A DNA stretch of 64,000 nucleotides from Deltaproteobacteria bacterium (GTDB lineage Bacteria; Desulfobacterota; Syntrophia; Syntrophales; UBA8958), in contig JAKPCH010000018.1 in assembly GCA_029553375.1 (NCBI GenBank), positions 60,616 through 124,615 on the forward strand, read 5' to 3'. Below, one piece after another: positions 18,001 to 45,178 of this stretch. The first letter of the stretch is position 1; each line of letters begins with the position of its first letter. The position numbers and the translations under genes are program-made. The notes under the pieces were generated by a model. That model saw only the letters and a program-made list of their open reading frames with translations, made no database searches and was not told where the DNA came from.

Positions 18001-21569
<3,569 letters not shown>

Positions 21570-21727
21570 CTCGCGTCCGGTTTATGTCCTATGTCTTTAA
21601 AAAATCTTCAATAGAAAGATAAGTTTCAATAGGAACGCCTGTGGAAAAGGGGATAACGTTTCCAAAAGCCTTTAATATCAAACTTCAAGGCAGGAAAAGA
21701 CCCGTGGTGATCTTTGTTGATGGCCTG
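21570..21727. other. Candidate oriC-associated AT-rich intergenic region (dnaN/dnaA)
   Basis: 158 bp AT-rich spacer in a GC-rich genome, containing TGTGGAAAA (21640-21648, one mismatch to the DnaA box TGTGGATAA), flanked by dnaA and dnaN. Confidence 0.4.
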
Positions 21728-23083
21728 TCAATACCTGCTCCTCAATAGGTCCTCGATCTCGTCCATGAGTCTCTTTACCCCGGGGTCCGTCTCCCTCACC
21801 TTCTCCATCTTGTGACAGGCATGGATGACCGTCGAGTGATCGCGGCCCCCGATCTTCTCTCCGATATCGGGGAAGGAGGCCTCGGTGATCTTTCTGGCCA
21901 GATACATGGCTATCTGCCGAGATAAGGCTATCTGTTTGTTCTTTTTTGGTGATTTTATGTCGGAAACCTTCACGCCCGTCTTGGCGGCCACGGCCTTGAC
22001 GATCTCGTCGATGGACAGATCGTTGCGGGAGGTACGACGGATCATGTTCTTGAGGACCTCCCGGACGAGGTCCGTGTCGATGGGCCGTTCCTTGAGGGAG
22101 GCGTAGGCCACGATCCTCAGGAGAAAACCCTCGATCTCGCGGATGTTGGACTCCGAATGGGAGGCGATGTAATATGCGACGCTGTCCGGCAGATCGATAT
22201 TGTTCTCCTGGGTTTTCTTCTTGATGATGGCCACCTTCGTCTCCGTTTCGGGGGGCTGGATGTCGGCGATGAGACCCCACTCGAAGCGGGAACGGAGCCT
22301 GTCTTCGAGATTAGGTATTTCCTTGGGGAATTTGTCGCTCGTGACGACGATCTGTTTTCCCGTGTCGTGGAGGGAATTGAAGGTGTGGAAGAACTCCTCC
22401 TGGGTCCTTTCCTTACCCGCTATGAACTGGATGTCGTCCATCAACAGACAGTCGATGTTGCGGTATTTGTCGCGGAAGGACTGCATCTTGTCGTAGCGGA
22501 TGCAGTTGATCATCTCGTTCATGAAGGCCTCGGCGGAGATGTAAAGGACGTTCATGTGGGGATAGAGGTTGATCGTGTGGAGGCCGATGGCGTTGAGGAG
22601 GTGGGTTTTACCCAGGCCGACCCCCCCGTAGATGAAGAGGGGGTTATAGTTCTTGGCCGGTTTTTCCGCCACGGCGACGGATGTGGCGTGGGCGAACTGA
22701 TTAGACGGCCCGACGACGAATCTCTCGAAACTGTAGTTGGGGTTGAGGCTGGGGTTGACCTGTTTCAGGCGCCTCTCGTTCTCCGGGACCCTCTTCCCCT
22801 CGGCCGGAGACGCCGCCTGCGGGGGCTTGTCGCCTTTCATCTTCCCGTGGTGGATGGAGATCTCGACGACCAGCTCCTTACCCTGCACGGTCTTGACGGA
22901 GTTGCGGATGAGATCCAGGTAGTGGTCCGTGATCCAGTCCTTGAAGAAGCGGTTCGGGACGCCCAGACGGAAGACGTCCTCTTCGATACCAAGAAAGCGC
23001 AGGGGCCTTATCCACGTATCGAAATTTTGTTTACTCAAACTTTTTTCAATTAAATCAATTACTTGATTCCAAATATCGTTCAT
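21728..23083 (-). CDS. dnaA: Chromosomal replication initiator DnaA
   Basis: NPLFIYGGVGLGKTHLLNAIG Walker A, LLMDDIQFIAGKERTQEEFFHTFN, GGRDHSTVIHACHK DnaA-box binding signature. Confidence 0.98.
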   Translation of the reverse strand: MNDIWNQVIDLIEKSLSKQNFDTWIRPLRFLGIEEDVFRLGVPNRFFKDWITDHYLDLIRNSVKTVQGKELVVEISIHHGKMKGDKPPQAASPAEGKRVPENERRLKQVNPSLNPNYSFERFVVGPSNQFAHATSVAVAEKPAKNYNPLFIYGGVGLGKTHLLNAIGLHTINLYPHMNVLYISAEAFMNEMINCIRYDKMQSFRDKYRNIDCLLMDDIQFIAGKERTQEEFFHTFNSLHDTGKQIVVTSDKFPKEIPNLEDRLRSRFEWGLIADIQPPETETKVAIIKKKTQENNIDLPDSVAYYIASHSESNIREIEGFLLRIVAYASLKERPIDTDLVREVLKNMIRRTSRNDLSIDEIVKAVAAKTGVKVSDIKSPKKNKQIALSRQIAMYLARKITEASFPDIGEKIGGRDHSTVIHACHKMEKVRETDPGVKRLMDEIEDLLRSRY

Positions 23084-23099
23084 TTTCCGTCATTTCTCA

Positions 23100-23125
23100 A
23101 CAGGTTTGTCAACACCTGTGAATAA
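23100..23125. promoter_or_regulatory. Inverted repeat plus DnaA-box-like site upstream of dnaA
   Basis: ACAGGT-ttgtcaac-ACCTGT (23100-23119) overlapping TGTGAATAA (23117-23125, one mismatch to TGTGGATAA). Another near-match, TTATCCACG, lies at 23008-23016 in the dnaA 5' coding region. Confidence 0.45.
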
Positions 23126-23139
23126 GTTTCTCTGGGACC

Positions 23140-23994
23140 TCACAGTTTCAGGAGGAGCCCCAGGAGGCGGTCGAGCTCCTCGACGGAAGAGAAGAGGATC
23201 TCTATTCTCCCCGAGCCATCCCGTCCCCTGAGACGGACGGGGGCGAGGAACCGCTCCGTCAGCCTCTTTTCGAGGTCTTGAAAGTACGGCTCCCTTTTTC
23301 TCTCCCCCCCTTTTTCCCTCTTGGCCTCGGACATGAGACGGACAAGACGTTCCGTGCCCCTGACGGTGAGGGAGCGGTTTTGGACGACCCTGAGGGCCCG
23401 CAGTTGGTCGGACGGTTCGGGGAGGGCGAGGAGGGCCCGGGCGTGGCCGGTGCTGATCTTCTTCTCCACCAGGGCCTTCTTCACCTCCTGGGGCAGTTTC
23501 AGGAGCCTCAGGGTGTTGGCGACGGTGGAACGATCCTTCCCTACCCGGGCGGCGATCTCCTCCTGGGTGAGGCCGAACCGACCCATCAGGGTCGCGTAGG
23601 CCTCCCCCTCCTCGATGGGGTTCAGGTCTTCCCGCTGGAGGTTCTCGATGAGGGAGATCTCGGCCAGGTCTCGATCCTCCGCTTCCCGGATGACGACGGG
23701 TACCTCTTTTATCCCCGCCTCCTGAGCCGCCCGCCAGCGTCTCTCGCCGGCGATGATCTCGTAGCCCCCCTCGGTCAGCCTCCTGACCACGAGGGGCTGG
23801 ATGATGCCGTTTTTCTTCACCGAAGCGACGAGCCCCTCCTGTTGCTCCGCCTTGAAGTCCCTGCGGGGCTGGAAGCGGTTCGGCCTGAGTTCCTCGATCC
23901 CGACGGTCAGGTAGTCGAGACGTTTGTCGAGGTTCTTGGCCAGATCGGGGAAGAGGGCGCCGAGACCCTTCCCGAGGGTGGGCTTGGGGGACAT
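23140..23994 (-). CDS. parB: Chromosome partitioning protein ParB
   Basis: GLGALFPD, LRPNRFQPRRDF, IIAGERRWRAAQEAG, LIENLQREDLNPIEEGEAY, HTH RVGKDRSTVANTLRLL. Confidence 0.96.
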   Translation of the reverse strand: MSPKPTLGKGLGALFPDLAKNLDKRLDYLTVGIEELRPNRFQPRRDFKAEQQEGLVASVKKNGIIQPLVVRRLTEGGYEIIAGERRWRAAQEAGIKEVPVVIREAEDRDLAEISLIENLQREDLNPIEEGEAYATLMGRFGLTQEEIAARVGKDRSTVANTLRLLKLPQEVKKALVEKKISTGHARALLALPEPSDQLRALRVVQNRSLTVRGTERLVRLMSEAKREKGGERKREPYFQDLEKRLTERFLAPVRLRGRDGSGRIEILFSSVEELDRLLGLLLKL

Positions 23995-24765
23995 CTATAC
24001 CCTCCCGTTTCTCATGATTTCACCGGCCAGTTCCATGTAGGCCGCCGCCCCCCGGGACCTGATGTCGTAAAGGAGGACGGGGAGACCGTGACTCGGACTC
24101 TCGGAGAGACGCACGTTACGGGGGATGACGGTGTTGAAGACCTTGGCCCCGAAGTGACGCCTTACCTCTTCGCTTACCCGATGGGAGAGGAGATTGCGGG
24201 TGTCGAACATCGTCAGGAGGATCCCCGCCATGGTCAGGGAGGGGTTGAAGGCAAAGCGGATGAGACGGACGGTGTTCAGGAGATTGGCGAGTCCCTCCAT
24301 GGCAAAGTACTCGCACTGGAGGGGGACGATATAGTGATCCGCCGCCACGAGGGCGCTGACGGTGAGGATCCCCAGGGAAGGGGGACAATCCAGGAGGATG
24401 TAGTGGAAGGAGCCCTTCATTCCCGCCAGGAGGTCCTTCAGCTTACGTTCCCGCTGATCGAGATGGACGAACTCGACCTCGACGCCGATGAGGTTCTGAT
24501 CCGACGGCAGGACGTGGAGATGGGGCAGACGGGTGGGACGGATGACCTCCTCCACGGGCAGCTGTCCGATGAGGGCGTGGTAGAGGTTCCTACCCCCGAC
24601 GGCGCCGCGGTCGATCCCCACACCCGTCGTGGCGTTCCCCTGGGGATCGCAATCGACGAGGAGGACCTCCTGCTCCGCCGTGGCCAGGGAGGCGGCGAGG
24701 TTGATGGCCGTCGTCGTCTTGCCTACGCCACCCTTTTGATTGGCAATGGCTATTATTTTACCCAT
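23995..24765 (-). CDS. parA: Chromosome partitioning ATPase ParA/Soj
   Basis: MGKIIAIANQKGGVGKTTTAINLAASLA (deviant Walker A), DCDPQGNATTGVG, LLDCPPSLGILTV. Confidence 0.97.
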   Translation of the reverse strand: MGKIIAIANQKGGVGKTTTAINLAASLATAEQEVLLVDCDPQGNATTGVGIDRGAVGGRNLYHALIGQLPVEEVIRPTRLPHLHVLPSDQNLIGVEVEFVHLDQRERKLKDLLAGMKGSFHYILLDCPPSLGILTVSALVAADHYIVPLQCEYFAMEGLANLLNTVRLIRFAFNPSLTMAGILLTMFDTRNLLSHRVSEEVRRHFGAKVFNTVIPRNVRLSESPSHGLPVLLYDIRSRGAAAYMELAGEIMRNGRV

Positions 24766-24871
24766 TTTATTTTCTTGATGACAACCAACCGAGAGCGAGA
24801 GAGAGACTACCACAAAAGCAAGGTCTTGGGAAGAGTTTTCCCGTCCCGTCAATACAGTTTATGTATAAGAT

Positions 24872-25537
24872 TTAATTTGGTTTTTTGAAAAGAAACAAAT
24901 TCCTGGGGCGGGGTGAGAAGGGGTGTTTCACCTCCAGGGGCGGTTGGGTAATAAGGCCAATCTTATCAATAACTTTCTCTGTTTCTGACCGCTCTTCGGG
25001 ACCGAGGACGCCCTTCATCGCCAGGAGCCAGCCGCCGGGACGGACGAAGACGGAGGCGAGGGTCAAAAAGGCGGGGAGGCGAAAGGCGGCCCGGGAGAGG
25101 GCCCCATCGTAGGTCCCTCGATGTTCCTCCCGTGCCGCCAGTTCTTCCCCCCGGACGCGATACACCGCCACGTCGGGCAGAGACAGGACCCTGACCGTTT
25201 CCCTCAGGAACGAGGCCTTTTTTCGGAACGGTTCGACGAGGGCAAAGCTCAAGTCCCGCCGCACGATCTTGAGGGGCACGGCGGGGAGGCCCTGGCCCGA
25301 GCCGAGATCCACGATCCGTTGCGGGCCTCCGGCCAGGAGGGCCAGGGGGGTGAGGGAGTCCACGAAGTGAACCATCACCACCTCCTCGGGTGACCGAGAG
25401 GAGATGAGGTTGATCTTTCTGTTCCAGAAGGTGATGAGCTCGAGATAACGCCCGAAGGCCCGGAGCTGTTCTTCGTCGAGGCCGATGCCTAAGGATGATG
25501 CGGCGCCGGCGAACCTCTCCCAAAGGCCCTCGCCCAT
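24872..25537 (-). CDS. rsmG: 16S rRNA (guanine527-N7)-methyltransferase RsmG
   Basis: FWNRKINLISSRSPEEVVMVHFVDSL, IVDLGSGQGLPAVPLKI; adjacent to parA. Confidence 0.95.
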   Translation of the reverse strand: MGEGLWERFAGAASSLGIGLDEEQLRAFGRYLELITFWNRKINLISSRSPEEVVMVHFVDSLTPLALLAGGPQRIVDLGSGQGLPAVPLKIVRRDLSFALVEPFRKKASFLRETVRVLSLPDVAVYRVRGEELAAREEHRGTYDGALSRAAFRLPAFLTLASVFVRPGGWLLAMKGVLGPEERSETEKVIDKIGLITQPPLEVKHPFSPRPRNLFLFKKPN

Positions 25538-26289
25538 CAGGGGTCGTCTTGGCGGCCGTTGATCATGATCTCCTCCACCCTCCGGAGGTCCTCCTCCGTG
25601 TCCACCTCCACGGAGTCATGGTCCGTCTCCACCACCTTGATCCGGTACCCGTGCTCGAGGGCCCGGAGCTGTTCGAGGGCCTCGAGTCGTTCGAGTCGTC
25701 CCGTGGGGAGGGACGCGAAGAGTCGAAGGAAGCTCCGCCGGTAGGCGTAGATGCCGTGGTGCTTGTAGTAGACGGCCTTCTGCCCCCCGTCCCTGACGAA
25801 GGGGATGGTCGACCGGGAAAAGTAAAGGGCGAAACCGTCCTGGGTGCAGACGGTCTTCACGGCGTTGGGATGGTGGATCTCTTCGGGGCGGACGATCCGG
25901 TAGATCAGGGTGGACATGGGTAGATCCGGATCCTCCAACAGGGGGGTCGTCACCTCCTCGATGTGACGGGGATGGAAGAGGGGCTGATCGCCCTGGATGT
26001 TGATGACGATCGTGTCGTTACTCAGACCGAGGATCTCCGCCGCCTCGTGTAGACGGTCCGTGCCGGAGCGGTGGCGGGAGGCCGTCATCACGGCCCGGCC
26101 GCCGAAGGCCGCCACGGCCTCCCTGATCCGGTCGTCGTCCGTGGCGACGGCCACGAGGTCCACGAGGGGGGAGGAACGAACCCTCTCGTAGACGTGTTGG
26201 ATCATGGGTTTACCCATCAGGGGCGCCAGGGGCTTCCCGGGGAAGCGGGAGGACTCGTAGCGGGAGGGTATGATGCCGACGACCTTCAT
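25537..26289 (-). CDS. kdsB: 3-deoxy-manno-octulosonate cytidylyltransferase (Kdo or 8-amino-Kdo)
   Basis: MKVVGIIPSRYESSRFPGKPLAPLMGKPMIQHVYERV, INIQGDQPL, KHHGIYAYRRSFL. Confidence 0.96.
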   Translation of the reverse strand: MKVVGIIPSRYESSRFPGKPLAPLMGKPMIQHVYERVRSSPLVDLVAVATDDDRIREAVAAFGGRAVMTASRHRSGTDRLHEAAEILGLSNDTIVINIQGDQPLFHPRHIEEVTTPLLEDPDLPMSTLIYRIVRPEEIHHPNAVKTVCTQDGFALYFSRSTIPFVRDGGQKAVYYKHHGIYAYRRSFLRLFASLPTGRLERLEALEQLRALEHGYRIKVVETDHDSVEVDTEEDLRRVEEIMINGRQDDP

Positions 26290-26299
26290 GACAGGCCCT

Positions 26300-27271
26300 C
26301 TACAGGTAGGGATCGTCTTTCAGGAGGTGGTTCTTGATGTAATCGGCGACGCCTTCCTCCAGGGTGCGGAAGGTGACGGGGCAACCCGCCTCCTTGAGCT
26401 TGTCCATCTTTGCCTCGGTGAAGTATTGATACTGGGCCTCGAGGCCGGGCGGCATGTCGATGTACTCGATGACGGGAGGGAGTCCCATGGCCGCGAAGGT
26501 GGCCGCCATGAGGTCGTTCCAGGACCGGGCGCGCCCCGTACCCAGGTTGAAGATGCCGTTGACGGTAGGGTTTTCCAGGAGCCAGAACATGACCTCGACA
26601 CAGTCCTTCACGTACACGAAATCGCGCATCTGTCCCCCGTCGGGATAGGCGGGCCGATAAGACTTGAAGAGGCCGACCTTGCCCGTCTCCCTGATCTGAC
26701 CGAAGGCCTTGTGGACGACGCTGCGCATCTCCCCCTTGTGGTACTCGTTGGGACCGAAGACGTTGAAGAATTTCAGTCCCGCCACGTTCCGCTCCCACCC
26801 CCTCTTCAGGAGCCACAGGTCGAAGACCTGCTTGGAATAACCGTACATATTGATCGGTTTCAAGGTCTTGGTGACCTCGTCGTCGTCGCTGAATCCTTGC
26901 TCGCCCTTTCCGTAGGTGGCGGCGGAGCTGGCGTAGATGAAGCGGATGCCGTTGCGGACGGCCCAGTCGCAGAGCCGGCAGGAGTAGAGGTAATTGTTCA
27001 TCCACAGGTAATCGGCGTCGCGTTCCGTCGTGGAGGAACAGGCCCCCATGTGGATCAGGGCCCGGCAGGTGAAGTGGACCTGGTCGGCGTAGATCATCTT
27101 CAGAAAGTCGTCCTTGTGGATGTACTCTATGAAGCGCCGGTTGACGAGATTTTTCCACTTCTGCGAGGTGCCGAGGCGATCGACGACGACGATATCCTCC
27201 ACCCCCGCCTCGTTGAGTCTCCAGACGAAGGCGCTGCCGATGAAGCCGGCACCGCCGGTGACCACGATCAT
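26300..27271 (-). CDS. hldD: ADP-L-glycero-D-manno-heptose 6-epimerase
   Basis: MIVVTGGAGFIGSAFVWRLNEAGVEDIVVVD, HMGACSSTTERDADYLWMNNY, RDFVYVKDCVEVMFWL, PPGLEAQYQYFTEAKMDKL. Confidence 0.96.
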   Translation of the reverse strand: MIVVTGGAGFIGSAFVWRLNEAGVEDIVVVDRLGTSQKWKNLVNRRFIEYIHKDDFLKMIYADQVHFTCRALIHMGACSSTTERDADYLWMNNYLYSCRLCDWAVRNGIRFIYASSAATYGKGEQGFSDDDEVTKTLKPINMYGYSKQVFDLWLLKRGWERNVAGLKFFNVFGPNEYHKGEMRSVVHKAFGQIRETGKVGLFKSYRPAYPDGGQMRDFVYVKDCVEVMFWLLENPTVNGIFNLGTGRARSWNDLMAATFAAMGLPPVIEYIDMPPGLEAQYQYFTEAKMDKLKEAGCPVTFRTLEEGVADYIKNHLLKDDPYL

Positions 27272-27302
27272 CTTGGGCCGCCCTCCTTGATCTGGGATGT
27301 TT

Positions 27303-28505
27303 TCATATCTCCTTCCTCGCCCGGGCGACGGCCGAGGCAATACGGTCGAGCCTTTCCTGGTCCATCTTCACGGGGATCGCCATGAAGAGGGTACGACCCA
27401 GGAGGTCCTCCGCCTTCGGGATGTGACGGATACTGTAGTCCACCTTCCCCCGGTAGGAAGGGTCGGTGAAGGGGTATTTCTTGGAATTCGCCGTGGCCCA
27501 CGAGATCAGGTGGTGCCAGTTGGGGACGTAGTGCCAGTTGTTCTTCTTGAAATTGACCGTATCGACCCCTTCTTTGGCCAGGGCGTCCTGGAAACGGGCC
27601 GCCGTCACCTCGTCGGGGAAATTGAAGGCCAAAAAGGTCGCCGTGTCGCCGTCGGGGTCGGGGATGGCCCTGAACCCGATGCCGGGTACCTCGGAGAGGA
27701 CGGCCTTGACGGCGGCCTTGTTGCGTCGCTGGGCGGCGATGATATCGTCCAGCTTCCTGAGCTGGGCCAGGCCCAGGGCCCCCTGGAGTTCGTTCATCCG
27801 GAAGTTGAAGCCCAAGATGGGGTGCCTCTCCTGGGCGCGGCTGACCCGGGGGTCGTGGTCATGGCCGTGATCGTGGTACCAGTCCGCCCGCTCGTACAGG
27901 TCCTTGCGGTCCGTCACCACCATACCGCCCTCGCCGGTGGTCATGGTCTTGTAGTAGTCGAAGCTGAAGATGCCCATGTCGCCGAAGGTCCCGAGTTTCT
28001 TCCCCCGGAAGCTCCCGCCCGCCGCCTGGGCGTTGTCCTCGAGGACGAGGAGAAAGGACCGGCGGGCCGCCTCCACGATACGGTCGATATTGGCCGGGGC
28101 GCCGCACATGTGAACGGGTATCACCGCCTTGGTATAGGGGGTCATCTTGCGGATGATGTCGTCGGGGTCGAGGCAGAGGCTCTCGTCTATATCCGCCATC
28201 ACGGGTACGGCGCCGACCTCCAGGACGGCCTCGTAGGTGGCGATGAAGGTGAAGGCGGGACAGATGACCTCGTCGCCCGGCCCCACGTCGAGGGCCGTCA
28301 GGGCGACCTTGAGGGCCGCCGAGCCCGAGGTCACGCCCAGGGCGTAGGAAGTGCCGCAGTAACGGGCAAAGGCCTCCTCGAAGAGGCGGACCTTGAACAC
28401 GCCCCGCCGTTCCTTATCGAAACCGTAGCGCATCAGGACGCCCGTCTCCATGACGTCCATCACCTCTTTAAGCTCTTCTTGACCGATCACTTCCATACCG
28501 GGCAT
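27303..28505 (-). CDS. kdnA: DegT/DnrJ/EryC1 family PLP aminotransferase, probable 8-amino-3,8-dideoxy-manno-octulosonate transaminase (KdnA)
   Basis: MPGMEVIGQEELKEVMDVMETGVLMRYGFDKERRGVFKVRLFEEAFARY, FDYYKTMTTGEGGMVVT (PLP Lys), DHGHDHDPRVSRAQERHPILGFNFRMNELQGALGLAQL, NNWHYVPNWHHL. Recalled KdnA features; next to kdsB and an Fe-ADH. Confidence 0.75.
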   Translation of the reverse strand: MPGMEVIGQEELKEVMDVMETGVLMRYGFDKERRGVFKVRLFEEAFARYCGTSYALGVTSGSAALKVALTALDVGPGDEVICPAFTFIATYEAVLEVGAVPVMADIDESLCLDPDDIIRKMTPYTKAVIPVHMCGAPANIDRIVEAARRSFLLVLEDNAQAAGGSFRGKKLGTFGDMGIFSFDYYKTMTTGEGGMVVTDRKDLYERADWYHDHGHDHDPRVSRAQERHPILGFNFRMNELQGALGLAQLRKLDDIIAAQRRNKAAVKAVLSEVPGIGFRAIPDPDGDTATFLAFNFPDEVTAARFQDALAKEGVDTVNFKKNNWHYVPNWHHLISWATANSKKYPFTDPSYRGKVDYSIRHIPKAEDLLGRTLFMAIPVKMDQERLDRIASAVARARKEI

Positions 28506-28537
28506 ATTGAGATCCTCCCGATTTTATTGTTTTTGTT

Positions 28538-29695
28538 TCACCATGCGGCCCGATAGATCTCGAGGGCCGCCTCACGATCAATCTTCCGGGGATTGTTCTC
28601 CAGGGGCCTGGTGACCGTCAGGGCCTGTTCGGCCAGGTCGGCGAAGTCCTCCTCGGGGATATCGAGGTCCTCCAGGGACATGGCGACGCCGCAGTCCTCG
28701 ATGAGGGCCTCCACGGCCTCCACGGCCCGTCCCGCCGCCTCGCGGACGGACAGGCCTTCCGTTTCCTCCCCGAGGGCCTCGGCGAGGTCCGCGAATTTAT
28801 CCAGGCACCCGGGGAGGTTGAAATTCATCACGGCGGGCAGCAGGACGGTGTTCGCCAAGCCGTGGGGGATCCCGTAGCGGCCCCCCAGGGGGTAGGAGAG
28901 GGAATGGACGGCCGTCACCCCGGCGTTGGCGAGTCCCAGGCCGGCATAGAGGCTGGCCAGAAGCATGTTCGACCGGGCCTCGGCGTTGCGGCCGTCGTGA
29001 ACGGCGACGCGGATATAGCCGCCGATGAGGGCCACCGCCTCGAGGGAAAAGAGCTCGCTCATGGGAGAGGAATTGCGGGAGGTGTAAGACTCGATGGCAT
29101 GGCACAGGGCGTCGATGCCCGTCGTAGCCGTGGGAAAGGGGGGCAGGGTGAGGGTCAGTTCCGGGTCCAAGAGGGCCACCGTGGGATAGAGGAAGGGGCT
29201 GTTCATCCCCTCCTTCTTGTTCAGGTCCTTCCTGACGAAGACGGCCGTGAAGGTGACCTCGCTACCCGTCCCGGCGGTCGTGGGTACCATGACGGTCTTG
29301 AGCCCCGGTCCCGGCACCTTGTTGAGACCGAGGAACTCCGCCGCCTTTGCCCGGTGGGCCGCCACGACGGCGATGGCCTTGGCCGTGTCCATGGCGCTCC
29401 CCCCCCCGATACCGACGACGGCGTCGCATTTTCCTCTCAGGGCCGCCTTGGCCCCCTCGTCGGCCGTCTCGAGGGGCGGTTCCGGTTCCACGCCGTCGAA
29501 AAAGATCGTCTTGAGGCCCCGGCGTGCAAGGATGTCGGCGATCCGCTCTTTCAGCCCCTGGGCCGCCAGGGCGCCGTCCATGACCACGAGGGGGCGGCGG
29601 CAGGACAGCTCGGCGAGGCAATCCCCGAGGCCCTCGCAGATCCCCCAGCCGAAGAGGATCTTGCCGGCGCCGGTAAAGGTGAAATTCTTGATCAT
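28538..29695 (-). CDS. kdnB: Iron-containing alcohol dehydrogenase, probable Kdo 8-oxidase (KdnB)
   Basis: VVGIGGGSAMDTAKAIAVV, VPTTAGTGSEVTFTAVF, GIDALCHAIESYTS, HSLSYPLGGRYGIPHGLANTVLLP (Fe-ADH family). KdnB assignment rests on the kdnA/kdsB neighbourhood. Confidence 0.68.
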   Translation of the reverse strand: MIKNFTFTGAGKILFGWGICEGLGDCLAELSCRRPLVVMDGALAAQGLKERIADILARRGLKTIFFDGVEPEPPLETADEGAKAALRGKCDAVVGIGGGSAMDTAKAIAVVAAHRAKAAEFLGLNKVPGPGLKTVMVPTTAGTGSEVTFTAVFVRKDLNKKEGMNSPFLYPTVALLDPELTLTLPPFPTATTGIDALCHAIESYTSRNSSPMSELFSLEAVALIGGYIRVAVHDGRNAEARSNMLLASLYAGLGLANAGVTAVHSLSYPLGGRYGIPHGLANTVLLPAVMNFNLPGCLDKFADLAEALGEETEGLSVREAAGRAVEAVEALIEDCGVAMSLEDLDIPEEDFADLAEQALTVTRPLENNPRKIDREAALEIYRAAW

Positions 29696-29778
29696 TGCGG
29701 TCTCCTCTCAGAGATTTCGCGGCATCATACATGATGAGCCCCAAACGTAAAAGGGGAAAATGCCTTATCCGCCGACGG

Positions 29779-30723
29779 CTATACGAAAGCGGCCCTCACG
29801 AAGACGCCGGCGATGAAGAAGAGGACGGTGGTGACCCACATCAGGGCGTTGGCCCGGCGGATGTCGTCGATCTCGAGGGGCCTGGTGTCGTCGCCGATGA
29901 ACGGTCTCAGAGAGGTTTTGCCCCCATAGGTGTTAAGGCCGCCCAACCGTACACCCAAGGCGCCCGCCACCGCCCCTTCGGGAAAACCGGCATTGGGACT
30001 CGGATGCCTTTTGCCGTCTCTCCTCATGACCTTGAAGGCCCCCGCGGCATCGAGGCGGACGAGGGCGGCGGCGAGGACGATAAAGACCCCCGTGAGCCGG
30101 GCGGGGATGTAGTTGAAGACATCGTCCAAGCGGGCCGCCGCCCAGCCGAAACGGCCGTAGCGTTCATCGCGGTGACCGAAGAGGGAGTCCATGGTGTTGA
30201 CGGCCTTGTAGAGGACCGCGCCGAGGGGACCGCCGATGAGGGCCCAGAAGAGGGGTGCCGTGACACCGTCGCTGGTGTTCTCCGCCGTGCTCTCCACGGC
30301 GGCCCGAACGACCTCGGTGGTGTCCATGTTCCCGGTGTCCCGTCCCACCATGAAACCGACGCGACGCCGCGCCTCCTCCAGGTCGCCCGCCGCCAGACTG
30401 TCGTGGACGTCCAGGGCATGGCGGGAGAGATCCCGGGCGGCGATGGTCGTGTAGAGAAGGAAGATGGAGAGAGCGTCGGCGAGGACGGGGGAGGCGAGGG
30501 CCGCCAGGTGGAGGGCCATGGTCACGACGGCCCCCGTCAGGGTCAGGACGGTGATCACGACCAGGGCCCCGGCGAAGTACTCGTTTCTGTATATGTTTCT
30601 GAAAGGCCCCTCCAAGGCGGCGGCCAGGCCGCCGATGATCTTCACGGGATGGGGGAAGCGGCGCGGGTCGCCGAGGACGAGATCGAGGACGAAGGCGATG
30701 AGGAGCTGGTACTCCAGATTCAT
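29779..30723 (-). CDS. cbiB: Adenosylcobinamide-phosphate synthase
   Basis: FVLDLVLGDPRRFPHPVKIIG, STAENTSDGVTAPLFWALIGGPLGAVLYKAVNTMDSL. Confidence 0.95.
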   Translation of the reverse strand: MNLEYQLLIAFVLDLVLGDPRRFPHPVKIIGGLAAALEGPFRNIYRNEYFAGALVVITVLTLTGAVVTMALHLAALASPVLADALSIFLLYTTIAARDLSRHALDVHDSLAAGDLEEARRRVGFMVGRDTGNMDTTEVVRAAVESTAENTSDGVTAPLFWALIGGPLGAVLYKAVNTMDSLFGHRDERYGRFGWAAARLDDVFNYIPARLTGVFIVLAAALVRLDAAGAFKVMRRDGKRHPSPNAGFPEGAVAGALGVRLGGLNTYGGKTSLRPFIGDDTRPLEIDDIRRANALMWVTTVLFFIAGVFVRAAFV

Positions 30724-30732
30724 CAGCCTACC

Positions 30733-31488
30733 TCAAGGCCGGGCAAGATAAGGCAACATGGCGGCGGCGGCGACGAGAAAGGCCGTCTCCGCCAGCTCCG
30801 AGGCGGCCCCCAGTGTATCCCCCGTGAAGCCGCCCAGGCGGCGCCGGACCATGACGTTTACCCCGGCGGAGACGAGGAGGGCGCAAGCGGCCACGGCCAT
30901 CCCCGGCCCCCCACCGGCCAGGAGACATGCCCCCCCCAGGACGAGAAAGGAGAGGACGGCGACCCACAGGGTTCGACGTCTTGTGAATTCCGTGGCCAGA
31001 CCGCCCTCGGGACGGGCGTAGGGGAGGGTGTTGAGCATGAGGATCATGGCGCCGCGCCCCGCCGGGGGGGCCAGGATCAGGGCGAGGCCGCGCCAGGGAC
31101 CCGTGAGGGACAGGAGGGAGGAGATCTTCAGAAGGAGGACGAAGATCAAGGCCAGCACCCCCATGACCCCCGTGCGGCTGTCTCTCATGATCTCGAGGAT
31201 CCGGTCCCGGTCGCGGACGCTGAACAGACCGTCCGCCGTATCCGCCAATCCGTCCAGGTGGAGGCCCCCCGTGAGGATCGCCAGGGTCATGATCGTCAGG
31301 ACCGCCGCCATGGGGGTGGGGAAGACGGTCGTGTAGAGGAGGTCGGCGAAGAATGTCAGGCCCCCGATGATGAGACCAACGATGGGAAAGAAGGGCAGGC
31401 TGTCCTTGATCGCTGGGGGGGGCGTTTTGAGGGCGCGCGGCAGGGGGATGGCGGTGAGGAACTGGAGGGCGGCCAGGAAGGCCTTCAT
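30733..31488 (-). CDS. cobS: Adenosylcobinamide-GDP ribazoletransferase (cobalamin synthase)
   Basis: ALQFLTAIPLPRA, GGLHLDGLADTADGLFSVRDRDRILEIMRDSRTGVMG. Confidence 0.95.
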   Translation of the reverse strand: MKAFLAALQFLTAIPLPRALKTPPPAIKDSLPFFPIVGLIIGGLTFFADLLYTTVFPTPMAAVLTIMTLAILTGGLHLDGLADTADGLFSVRDRDRILEIMRDSRTGVMGVLALIFVLLLKISSLLSLTGPWRGLALILAPPAGRGAMILMLNTLPYARPEGGLATEFTRRRTLWVAVLSFLVLGGACLLAGGGPGMAVAACALLVSAGVNVMVRRRLGGFTGDTLGAASELAETAFLVAAAAMLPYLARP

Positions 31489-32549
31489 GGTTTGGCTTGG
31501 GATACGTTGGCCTCTTCGAAGGTGGCCACCTCCGAGAGGATGGCGACGGCGGCGTCCACGAGGGGCATGGCCAGGGCGGCCCCCGTCCCTTCCCCCAGGC
31601 GCAGGTCCAGATCGAGGAGGGGCTTAAGTCCCAGGGCATTGAGGGCGATGCGGTGCCCCTTTTCCATGCTCCGGTGCGAGGCGATCATGTAGTCCCGGCT
31701 CCGGGGGGCGAGCGCGGCGGCAATCAGGGCGCCCGCCGTGGAGATGAAGCCGTCGACGAGCACGGGTTTCCTGAGGGAGGCGGCACCCAGGATCAAGCCG
31801 GCGATACCCCCGATCTCGAACCCCCCCACGCCGGAAAGGACACCTATGGGATCGTCCGGCGCAGGGGCGTTCACCGCCAGGGCCTTTTCGATCATCTTGA
31901 TTTTATGGAGGAGCCGGTCGTCCGAGACGCCCGTTCCCCGGCCCGTGACGTCGGCGACTTCCGCCCGGGCATACAGGGCGACGATGGCGCTGCTGGGGGC
32001 CGTATTGCCGATACCCATCTCGCCCGTGGCGAAGACGTCCGTGGTCTGAGCCAGGTCGCGGGCGATCCTGATCCCCGTCTCAATGCTTTTTACCGCCTCT
32101 TCCCGGGTCATGGCGGGGCCCTCCGTCATATCCCGCGTCCCGGGGGCGACCTTGCCGTCCCTGATCTTCCCCGTCCGGACGAGGGCCCCCAGGTCCCCCG
32201 CGACGCCCATGTCCACCACCACGACCCTTGCCCCCGCCAAGCGGGCCAGGACGTTGATACCGGCGCCTCCCCGGACGAAGTTGTGGACCATCTGCATGGT
32301 GACATCCCGGGGGTAAAGACTCACCCCCCGGGCGGCGATACCGTGATCGGCCGCCATGACCGCCACCGTCTTCCGGGTGGCGGGAGGGGGCGTCCGGCCC
32401 GTCATGCCCGCCAGGTCCTCCGCGAGGTCCATGAGGCGCCCGAGGGCCCAATAGGGCATCGTCAACCTCTCCAGGCGGTCCCGGGCCCGCCGACGTGCCC
32501 CTTCGTCGCAGGTGGGGATCGTGTTTATCGTCTCTGTAAGCAGTTTCAC
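31485..32549 (-). CDS. cobT: Nicotinate-nucleotide:dimethylbenzimidazole phosphoribosyltransferase
   Basis: VMAADHGIAARGVSLYPRDVTMQMVHNFVRGGAGINVLAR, FATGEMGIGNTAPSSAI. GTG start at 32549 preferred (VKLLTETINTI). Confidence 0.94.
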   Translation of the reverse strand: MKLLTETINTIPTCDEGARRRARDRLERLTMPYWALGRLMDLAEDLAGMTGRTPPPATRKTVAVMAADHGIAARGVSLYPRDVTMQMVHNFVRGGAGINVLARLAGARVVVVDMGVAGDLGALVRTGKIRDGKVAPGTRDMTEGPAMTREEAVKSIETGIRIARDLAQTTDVFATGEMGIGNTAPSSAIVALYARAEVADVTGRGTGVSDDRLLHKIKMIEKALAVNAPAPDDPIGVLSGVGGFEIGGIAGLILGAASLRKPVLVDGFISTAGALIAAALAPRSRDYMIASHRSMEKGHRIALNALGLKPLLDLDLRLGEGTGAALAMPLVDAAVAILSEVATFEEANVSQAKP

Positions 32550-32652
32550 GGGACAGCCTTCACCTGCGGGCGTTTCTGCCTCATAAGGCACACCCTGTCA
32601 AGGGGGGATTTACGGGCGAAACCTCGACAGGACGACGCGAAAAAATGGGATT

Positions 32653-33156
32653 TCAAGAAAAGAGATCCTCCAGCTCCGTGATGATCCTTTCCGGAGGCGT
32701 CCGGCGCAGTTTTTCGAGGATGCGGACGTATTTTACCCCGTCGAAGGAAGCTCCCTCCGCGAGGCCCTGGAGGATAACGTGGACCAGAACGGTCATGATC
32801 AGGTGCAGGGCCTCATGGCGGGTATGACCGATTCTTTCCAGATACTCGCACAATAGGGCCGCCTCGATGGGATTTTCGCCGGCCACCTGCTCCTCCACCA
32901 TCTGGTGGATGGCGACGTGGAGGAAGGGATTGACCTTTTCCGTCGTCCCTATGCCTTCGCCTTCCAGGTAACTTTCATCTTCGAAATAACTCGCGAATTC
33001 CTGGTGGTCCATCAGGATGCCGTAGAGGATCTCCGCCTCCCTCTCCACGGGGGCCGGTTCCCCCGTCTTGACCTTTTGCCAGATGGTGTTGATCATCCGG
33101 CGCTGCCGCTGCCTTTCGAGTTTGAAAAGGGTTGATTGCCAGTCGTTATCCTTCAT
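32653..33156 (-). CDS. DUF1841 family protein
   Basis: NPFLHVAIHQMVEEQVAGENP...EYLERIGHTRHEALHLIMTVLVHVI resembles DUF1841 proteins. Confidence 0.75.
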   Translation of the reverse strand: MKDNDWQSTLFKLERQRQRRMINTIWQKVKTGEPAPVEREAEILYGILMDHQEFASYFEDESYLEGEGIGTTEKVNPFLHVAIHQMVEEQVAGENPIEAALLCEYLERIGHTRHEALHLIMTVLVHVILQGLAEGASFDGVKYVRILEKLRRTPPERIITELEDLFS

Positions 33157-33277
33157 TTTTTCCTCCTTTTATCCCCGTGGTGTGGTGGCGATCGCCCTGG
33201 CCCTTGACAGGGGTCCAAAAACGTCTAAGAGGAAGGCAGTCGTTGGGGAGTTGAAGTCTGTTGCGGGGTGTGTGGTC

Positions 33278-34069
33278 ATGCCTCTCCCGGTGGTGCAAAT
33301 CTACGAGGTCCAAGATCCCCTCCAGGCGGAGGCCCTGGCGGCCATGGGGGTGGATCGCATCGGCAGCGTCATCCTCCATCGCCGCCGGTGGCGGCTTACG
33401 GGAATCGAGGAAACCATCCGGATATGCCGCCGGAGAGGTGCCTCGGCGAGCCTGATCCCCCTCTTCCGCGATCGGGAAGGCGTCCTGGCCGTCCTCGACC
33501 ATTACCGCCCCCATATCGTCCATTTCTGCGAGGCCCTCTCCCCCTTCCCCGACGGCCGTGATGAGGCCCTGCGTCTCTGTGATGACCTTCTGGAACTCCA
33601 AATGGCCGTCCGGACCTTTTTCCCTGATATCCGCATCTGCCGCTCCCTCTCCCTCCCCCGGCCGGGGTCGGGAAGGGAGGAGGAGGTCTTAGGGCAGATC
33701 CTCGAGTATCTGCGTCTCTTCGCCCCTTTGAGCGACGAGTTTCTCCTCGACACCTATCTGGGCGGATTTACGGACGGGGATAGTCAACCCGTGACCGGTT
33801 TCGTAGGGATCACGGGTGAGACCCTCGATTGGGAGATCGCCGCCCGCCTCGTCGCTGCCAGTCCCCGCCCCGTTATCCTGGCCGGCGGTCTCTCGGCGGA
33901 CAACGTCTTCGCGGCGGTGATGAAGGTGCGTCCTTACGGCGTGGACAGTTGCACGAGAACCAACGCCGTCGATGAGGGGGGCACGCCCATCCGTTTCCGT
34001 AAGGACCTGGAAAAGGTGAGGCGTTTTCTCGCCGCCGCCCGCCGGGCCGGTGAGGCCCTGGGCCTATGA
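33278..34069 (+). CDS. TrpF/phosphoribosylanthranilate isomerase-like TIM-barrel protein
   Basis: VVQIYEVQDPLQAEALAAMGVDRIGSVI, DEFLLDTYLGGF, RPVILAGGLSADNVFAAVMKVRPYGVDSCTRTNA: N'-PRAI-like layout, but the catalytic KICG-type Cys is absent. Confidence 0.65.
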   Translation: MPLPVVQIYEVQDPLQAEALAAMGVDRIGSVILHRRRWRLTGIEETIRICRRRGASASLIPLFRDREGVLAVLDHYRPHIVHFCEALSPFPDGRDEALRLCDDLLELQMAVRTFFPDIRICRSLSLPRPGSGREEEVLGQILEYLRLFAPLSDEFLLDTYLGGFTDGDSQPVTGFVGITGETLDWEIAARLVAASPRPVILAGGLSADNVFAAVMKVRPYGVDSCTRTNAVDEGGTPIRFRKDLEKVRRFLAAARRAGEALGL

Positions 34070-42870: not shown

Positions 42871-43815
42871 ATGACCGAGAGGATTCGCATCGTCTTTATG
42901 GGGACGCCGGAGTTCGCCGTGCCTCCCCTGAGGGCCCTTGTCAAGGCGGGGTTCCATGTAGCGGCGGTCGTGACCCAGCCCGACCGTCCCGGTGGCCGGG
43001 GCCGCCGCCTCCTCGAGCCCCCCGTCAAGGCGACGGCGCGGCTGTACGAGCTGCCCGTGATTCAGCCCGAAAGGGTCAGGGACGAAAGCTTCCTGTCCCT
43101 TTTCAAGGATCTTGCCCCCCACCTGGTGGTGGTGGCCGCCTTCGGTCAGATCCTCCCGCGGGTGATCCTCGACACCCCACCTTTGGGCTGCCTCAATGTC
43201 CACCCTTCCCTCTTGCCCCGATACCGGGGTGCCGCTCCCATAAACTGGACCCTCATCAGGGGTGAAACCGTGACGGGGGTTACGATCATGCTCATGGACG
43301 AAGGGGTGGACACGGGGGATATCCTCCTCCAGAAGGAGACGCCCATCGCGGCGGGGGAGAACTACGATTCCCTCCATGAGCGTCTCTCCTTGATGGGAGC
43401 GGAGCTCCTCGTCGAGGCGATCCCGGCCTGGGAGCGGGGGCAACTCTCCCGCCGCCCTCAGGATCACGAGGGGGCGACCTACGCCCCGCGCTTGAAGAGG
43501 GAGGACGGTTTGATTCGTTGGGAGCGGGGAGGACGGGAGGTCGTCAATCTCATCCGGGGCCTTTCCTCCGTCCCCGGGGCCTATACCTATCTCGAGGGGA
43601 GGATCTTGAAGGTCTTCGCGGCCCGGTTTACGACCGGGGATACGGGTGTCCCCCCCGGTACCGTCGGCAAGGGCGACGGCAGGGAGATCCCCGTGTCTGT
43701 GAGCGACGGTTGGGTCTCCCTCCAGGAGGTCCAACTGGAAGGGAAGAAAAAGATGGCGGCGGCCGATTTCCTCCGTGGTTTCCCCCTCTCCCCGGGACGG
43801 CGCCTTGGTCAGTAA
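42871..43815 (+). CDS. fmt: Methionyl-tRNA formyltransferase
   Basis: RIVFMGTPEFAVPPLRALVKAG, QPDRPGGRGRRL, LNVHPSLLPRYRGAAPINWTLIRGETVTGVTIMLMDEGVDTGDIL. Confidence 0.97.
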   Translation: MTERIRIVFMGTPEFAVPPLRALVKAGFHVAAVVTQPDRPGGRGRRLLEPPVKATARLYELPVIQPERVRDESFLSLFKDLAPHLVVVAAFGQILPRVILDTPPLGCLNVHPSLLPRYRGAAPINWTLIRGETVTGVTIMLMDEGVDTGDILLQKETPIAAGENYDSLHERLSLMGAELLVEAIPAWERGQLSRRPQDHEGATYAPRLKREDGLIRWERGGREVVNLIRGLSSVPGAYTYLEGRILKVFAARFTTGDTGVPPGTVGKGDGREIPVSVSDGWVSLQEVQLEGKKKMAAADFLRGFPLSPGRRLGQ

Positions 43816-43819
43816 CGCC

Positions 43820-45178
43820 ATGGCGCATCGGCCGACAGCCGCCAATGCGGCACGTTATTGGGCCGTCCATATCCTCAATTGCCTGGAGAAAGGCCGTTCC
43901 TTCGCCGAGAGCCTCCTGGATCGGTGCCTGAGGAAGAACATCCCCGATCCCAGAGACCGGCGGCTGCTGACGGAGCTGGTCTACGGCACCCTCCGGATGA
44001 GGGGTTACTGCGATTGGCTCATCGGCCGTTATCTGAAAAGACCCCTCGCCTCCCTCAACCCCCCCGTTTTGAACATCCTCCGTACGGGTCTCTACCAGCA
44101 CTTCCACATGGACAGGATACCCCCCTTCGCCATCGTCCACGAGGCGGTGAAACTCACGAGGGAGTTTCGAGGGGGCAGCGAGGACTTGGTGAATGCCGTC
44201 CTCAGGAGGGTATTCCGTTGTCATTCCGAGCCGCCGCTCCCGCGCCTGGAACGGGAGAGTCCCTTGTATCTCTCCATCGTCCATTCCCATCCCCTATGGC
44301 TTGTGGAGAAGTGGCTGGACCTCTTCGGCCCCCAGGAGACGGAGGCCCTCTGCCGCGCCGACAACGCCGTGCCGCCCGTCGTGGTGAGGGTTAATACCTT
44401 GCGTGCCGACCGGGAATCGGTTAGGGAAGGCCTGACGGCGGAGGGGATGAGGGCGGAAGAGACGCCGTACTCCCCCGACGGTCTTATTGTCAAGGATGCC
44501 CGGCAGCCCCTCTGGGAAACGGCCGCCTACAAGCGGGGGGAGATCCAGGTCCAGGACGAGGCCTCCCAGCTCGTTTCCTATTGCCTGGCGCCGCGAAGGG
44601 GTGAGGTGATCCTCGACCTCTGCGCCGGTGTGGGGGGGAAGACGAGCCACATGGCCGCCCTGATGGGAAACGAGGGCCGGATCGTCGCCGTGGATGCCAG
44701 TGTCGGGAGACTGCAGGCCCAGCGGCGCCTCCTCGAGCGACTGGGGGTCCGGATCGTAACTCCCTTGAGGGCGGACGCGACGCAGGATTTGGGACCCGAG
44801 TTCTTGGCGGCCTTCGACCGGGTCCTCGTCGACGCCCCCTGTTCCGGTTTGGGGACCCTGAGGCGCGCCCCGGAGATAAGATGGCGGAGGGACACGTCCC
44901 GTCTGGACAAGATGACCTCCCTCCAGCGTCTGCTCCTCCGGCGGGCCGCCGCCTATGTGCGGCCGGGGGGGGTGGTAGTATACGCCACCTGTAGTGTCTT
45001 GCCCGAGGAGAATGAAGAGATCGTAGGGGACTTCTTAGATGAGAACGGGGGGTTCGAGGTGGCCGGGCCGGAAGGCCTGGATCCCTCGCTCACGGACGGG
45101 GACGGCTTCTTCCGCACCTATCCCCACCGGCACGACACGGACGGCTTTTTCGGGGCCGTCTTGATCCGCAGGAGTTAG
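43820..45178 (+). CDS. rsmB: 16S rRNA (cytosine967-C5)-methyltransferase
   Basis: N-terminal NusB-like domain; VDAPCSGLGTLRRAPEIRW and ATCSVLPEENEEIV motifs. Confidence 0.95.
   Translation: MAHRPTAANAARYWAVHILNCLEKGRSFAESLLDRCLRKNIPDPRDRRLLTELVYGTLRMRGYCDWLIGRYLKRPLASLNPPVLNILRTGLYQHFHMDRIPPFAIVHEAVKLTREFRGGSEDLVNAVLRRVFRCHSEPPLPRLERESPLYLSIVHSHPLWLVEKWLDLFGPQETEALCRADNAVPPVVVRVNTLRADRESVREGLTAEGMRAEETPYSPDGLIVKDARQPLWETAAYKRGEIQVQDEASQLVSYCLAPRRGEVILDLCAGVGGKTSHMAALMGNEGRIVAVDASVGRLQAQRRLLERLGVRIVTPLRADATQDLGPEFLAAFDRVLVDAPCSGLGTLRRAPEIRWRRDTSRLDKMTSLQRLLLRRAAAYVRPGGVVVYATCSVLPEENEEIVGDFLDENGGFEVAGPEGLDPSLTDGDGFFRTYPHRHDTDGFFGAVLIRRS

Follow-up and report, generated by a model that had tools for sequence, protein, structure and literature searches.

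Kdo is the sugar that anchors outer-membrane lipopolysaccharide (LPS); the primary account of the biosynthesis of its 8-amino form, Kdo8N, is said to be that of Gattis in 2013, and the KdsB of Shewanella reportedly prefers Kdo8N. A gene cluster in a Syntrophales genome, which a first-pass annotation had read as kdsB-hldD-kdnA-kdnB and assigned to Kdo8N synthesis, raises the question whether this modification is tied to one particular oxidase, KdnB, or can proceed with another iron-type alcohol dehydrogenase (Fe-ADH) in its place. We consider it highly probable that the cluster is an operon for inner-core Kdo8N whose Kdo 8-oxidase belongs to a second Fe-ADH subfamily that has no name so far and is here called type 2.

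Kdo8N has been called a hallmark of the genus Shewanella (PMC6357163), and the literature found describes it from Shewanella only and knows its oxidase as one Fe-ADH subfamily, FeADH3/cd08184 (PMC5125639). A literature search on the LPS of Syntrophus returned nothing relevant.

The locus and its surroundings

The window, by which we mean the whole 64,000-nucleotide stretch of DNA analysed here, carries four intact, co-directional open reading frames in the order Fe-ADH > kdnA > hldD > kdsB, separated by gaps of 10-32 bp (Table 1). The run and the peptides quoted for it by the first-pass annotation are present as described. The assembly comprises 2.40 Mb and is 100% complete by a computed estimate, and the close relatives that bear names are Syntrophales MAGs. 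Its only kdsB is the copy in the cluster, kdsA is present and waaA occurs once, so that both genes whose presence elsewhere in the genome was to be checked are accounted for. No NCBIfam model names kdnA or the Fe-ADH above its cut-off, as had been predicted in the expectation of generic pipeline names for both, and none names a true KdnB either.

Table 1. Features of the putative Kdo8N cluster (positions within the window)
Feature	Position	Strand	Remarks
Fe-ADH ('type 2'), putative Kdo 8-oxidase, not orthologous to KdnB	28538..29695	-	
kdnA, predicted PLP-dependent 8-amino-3,8-dideoxy-Kdo transaminase	27303..28505	-	46% identity to 5k8b, 362 bits
hldD, ADP-glyceromanno-heptose 6-epimerase	26300..27271	-	TIGR02197, 404 bits (cut-off 275)
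kdsB, CMP-Kdo/CMP-Kdo8N synthetase	25537..26289	-	TIGR00466, 233 bits (cut-off 155)
Weak sigma-70-like promoter match, 9/12	29724..29751	-	consensus match only; within the 83 bp upstream of the Fe-ADH

Downstream, the cluster continues directly into an origin-like rsmG-parA-parB-dnaA-dnaN-gyrB region (18001-25537), and in many Syntrophales it likewise adjoins rsmG-parAB, in either orientation. Directly upstream of the Fe-ADH, across the 83-bp gap and on the same strand, lie the late cobalamin synthesis genes cobT-cobS-cbiB (29779-32591); CbiB also precedes the cluster at three other loci (L047-L049). Further along, a 333-aa ORF on the forward strand (33068-34069) matches phosphoribosylanthranilate isomerase in its last third only and far below the equivalog cut-off, and a PADLOC match at 43775-45178 proved to be RsmB and hence no defence gene.

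The gene order recurs. Fe-ADH > KdnA > (HldD) > KdsB is found in dozens of Syntrophales loci and Fe-ADH > KdnA > KdsB across the phylum; the cluster is hence not a product of chance. Among the loci examined the hldD insertion is confined to Syntrophales, and at most loci elsewhere in the phylum hldD is missing and KdnA adjoins KdsB or lies close to it. The type-2 Fe-ADH adjoins KdnA in Syntrophales, Omnitrophota, TA06 and Vermiphilus.

The aminotransferase

In a search of solved structures, the aminotransferase finds its best match in S. oneidensis KdnA (5k8b) with 362 bits over residues 1-389, far ahead of perosamine synthase (189 bits) and ArnB (157 bits). The two proteins have the DHGHDH and NNWHY motifs in common along with full-length homology. 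Phylogenetic analysis places the aminotransferase inside the KdnA clade (support 100), from which perosamine synthase and five further DegT proteins encoded by this genome are excluded. This tree left out ArnB, PseC and WecE, of which ArnB falls far below 5k8b in the structure search, while the PseC and WecE models score far below cut-off on the aminotransferase. By homology, then, the aminotransferase is a true KdnA, as the first-pass annotation had proposed, and its reaction would be the transamination of 8-oxo-Kdo. It differs from the S. oneidensis enzyme in falling within the branch of the KdnA tree whose members are partnered by type 2. Plasmid and viral-contig searches for KdnA returned one weak plasmid match and no viral match, and thus give no sign of a mobile cassette.

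The dehydrogenase is not a KdnB ortholog

The Fe-ADH tells a different story from the kdnB label that it had been given. Among solved structures it comes closest to methanol dehydrogenase (260 bits), followed by propanediol oxidoreductase (236 bits) and lactaldehyde reductase (223 bits), whereas KdnB (5k8c) scores 79 bits; its identity to 5k8c is 28%, compared with 35-38% to FucO (1rrm), 1,3-propanediol dehydrogenase (3bfj) and the methanol dehydrogenase of Bacillus methanolicus (8zrl). An AlphaFold model (pLDDT 92.7) has the methanol, lactaldehyde and propanediol dehydrogenases as its nearest folds (TM-score 0.94-0.95), and 5k8c is absent among the best 50 fold matches. A Bacteroidota gene adjoining KdnA and KdsB reaches 418 bits to 5k8c, which shows true KdnB to be a distinct family that can be recognised as such, and a genome-wide search found no true KdnB in the genome of the window.

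The Fe-ADH tree resolves into three blocks. FucO and the propanediol and methanol dehydrogenases fall together with the other Fe-ADHs in one clade (100/99) that holds no type-2 sequence; KdnB forms its own clade (100/100); and type 2 makes up the third, its status as a single clade not being rejected (AU p 0.42). By identity and bit score the window protein does lie close to the 1,3-propanediol dehydrogenases, a grouping that the first-pass annotation had named as telling against its proposal, yet the clade of those enzymes excludes type 2. KdnB joins the tree by a long branch, either next to type 2 or within it, and the two oxidases may therefore share an origin. Seven type-2 sequences first labelled as unlinked all come from KdnA-bearing genomes or contigs, in one case with KdnA cut by the contig end. 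Only the higher-scoring Fe-ADHs from KdnA-negative genomes entered the tree, and rare orphan type-2 genes could thus be missed. Rooting with L012, a distant Fe-ADH of the same genome, was dropped on account of its divergence.

The Fe-ADH is therefore extremely unlikely to be an ordinary ortholog of KdnB. The same neighbours, the same superfamily and common Thr, Asn and Glu positions might suggest it; the scores set out above and the separate KdnB clade speak against it, and on this evidence the protein is related to KdnB at the level of the Fe-ADH superfamily and no closer. What it has in common with S. oneidensis KdnB, apart from superfamily membership, is a KdnA partner, four metal ligands and the NAD-type Asp. 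The arrangement of kdnA-linked genes differs as well, with true KdnB lying downstream of kdnA and type 2 upstream.

One Fe-ADH type or the other

KdnA is present in 71 of 297 sampled genomes of the phylum and absent from the other 226. Exactly one Fe-ADH type accompanies it in 68 of the 71: type 2 in 47, true KdnB in 21, and both in none. In two of the remaining three, KdnA sits at the edge of a contig; in the third (G202), whose KdnA groups with the KdnB-partnered KdnAs, neither oxidase was detected. True KdnB (the 5k8c clade) occurs in none of the 226 KdnA-negative genomes, and the sole one with a type-2 gene (G170) has an incomplete KdnA at the end of the same contig. The association of either oxidase with KdnA has a Fisher p of ~3e-62, a value uncorrected for relatedness, which makes p-values from such genomes overstate independence; type 2 is spread over 15 families and KdnB over 11. 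Throughout the phylum, the gene flanking KdnA is either type 2 (usually ADH > KdnA > KdsB) or KdnB (KdnA > KdnB, sometimes then KdsB), and the two never flank it together. In one genome (G064) the Fe-ADH sits beside KdsB, the association being kept despite gene movement.

The strongest argument for the interchangeability of the two dehydrogenases is a partner swap. In one family of six genomes (f35), one of them a single contig, KdnA is nested among the type-2-partnered KdnAs, true KdnB lies elsewhere in the genome, and a type-2 ADH was detected in none of the six. The relocated KdnB of this family (L253, 4555-5439; relatives L254-L258) comes after a conserved PfkB/ribokinase-family gene, a possible link to sugar handling.

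Two further observations concern the limits of these families. Some KdnA loci, the Bacteroidota and Lentisphaerota loci L101, L102, L105 and L106 among them, have neither oxidase nearby, and a third partner type was considered; for the loci of the phylum sample it was rejected, genome-wide searches having found true KdnB or type 2 elsewhere in most of these genomes. A divergent KdnB-like Fe-ADH (L230, L231, L232) scores 290-304 bits against KdnB; of the seven genomes that carry it six lack KdnA, and it may act on another substrate.

The substrate pocket

In FucO, substrate size depends on residues 151 and 259, and Phe254 is part of the pocket lining (PMC10324492). Comparison of 48 type-2 sequences, 22 KdnBs and 36 other Fe-ADHs, in FucO numbering, finds Thr at position 151 in every type-2 and KdnB sequence (48/48 and 22/22), with mostly Ile, Asn or Phe in the others. 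Asn stands at position 166 in 47/48 type-2 and 20/22 KdnB sequences, where 31/36 others have Val, and position 254 is Leu in all 48 type-2 sequences and Ile, Val or Ala in all 22 KdnBs, compared with Phe in 32/36 others. Judged from these alignments, type 2 and KdnB have substrate-pocket residues in common that most other Fe-ADHs are without. S. oneidensis KdnB itself has Thr150 and Asn165 in common with type 2, and the pocket Phe is missing in both; these pocket positions, together with the clade of KdnA-unlinked Fe-ADHs, set the FucO, propanediol and methanol dehydrogenases apart. The metal ligands D195, H199, H264 and H278 and the NAD-type Asp D40 are invariant, and since an Asp at this coenzyme position predicts NAD+ (PMC5125639), the Fe-ADH is predicted to use NAD+.

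The role of Kdo 8-oxidase that the first-pass annotation had given to the Fe-ADH is thus upheld by co-occurrence, mutual exclusion with KdnB, the partner swap and the common pocket residues, while the identification with KdnB by sequence falls away. Very probably, type 2 does the job of KdnB.

Weighing other functions

Two other readings accept the KdnA assignment or the gene pair and dispute the rest. KdnA might make Kdo8N beside an Fe-ADH that is a mere neighbour with another job, such as lactaldehyde or methanol oxidation, and small-alcohol dehydrogenases are indeed its best matches in both sequence and fold. We regard this as unlikely, given its near-perfect co-occurrence with KdnA, its mutual exclusion with true KdnB, an association that survives gene movement and the loss of Phe254 from the pocket. 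It is very unlikely that the two enzymes produce some amino sugar other than Kdo8N, be it a nucleotide sugar or a further ulosonic acid: kdsB linkage recurs, the genome has no second kdsB, type 2 and true KdnB take each other's place, and among solved DegT proteins 5k8b leads every other match to the window KdnA by more than 170 bits. What speaks for such a product is the versatility of the DegT family and an identity of no more than 46% between the window KdnA and the enzyme that has been tested. The Kdo8N pathway that the first-pass annotation had proposed, in contrast, fits a true KdnA, a linked KdsB, and a genome that also has kdsA and waaA outside the cluster.

A proposed pathway with two alternative oxidases

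In the proposed pathway, the type-2 Fe-ADH would oxidise the C8 hydroxyl of Kdo to the aldehyde with NAD+, and KdnA, in keeping with its close homology to the S. oneidensis enzyme, would convert the aldehyde to the amine by PLP-dependent transamination, probably from glutamate. KdsB, by homology, would activate the product as a CMP sugar, and the single WaaA would transfer it to lipid A. The cluster thus very probably swaps one Kdo hydroxyl for an amino group, and LPS carrying Kdo8N would be the product. If this KdsB prefers Kdo8N, then as the sole kdsB product it would render all CMP-Kdo-type flux amino-modified. In most KdnA-bearing genomes of the phylum, type 2 would stand in for KdnB.

Gene sets of this KdnA/oxidase kind are frequent in the phylum sampled here, and Bacteroidota and Omnitrophota have them as well. 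We put forward, tentatively and with some doubt, that two Fe-ADH subfamilies were independently recruited as Kdo 8-oxidase, converging on Thr151, Asn166 and the loss of Phe254 (FucO numbering) and replacing each other while KdnA was kept; on this view Kdo8N would be common in the inner core across the phylum and would extend to Bacteroidota and Omnitrophota.

Should the proposed reading be right, about one quarter of the sampled genomes of the phylum would encode amino modification of the Kdo anchor of their LPS, in most cases by way of an oxidase that no family model names, and the predicted outer-membrane charge of those bacteria would change. A genomic marker for Kdo8N would be gained, and the exchange of the two dehydrogenases in nature would serve as an experiment in the adaptation of an Fe-ADH pocket to an acidic sugar of eight carbons.
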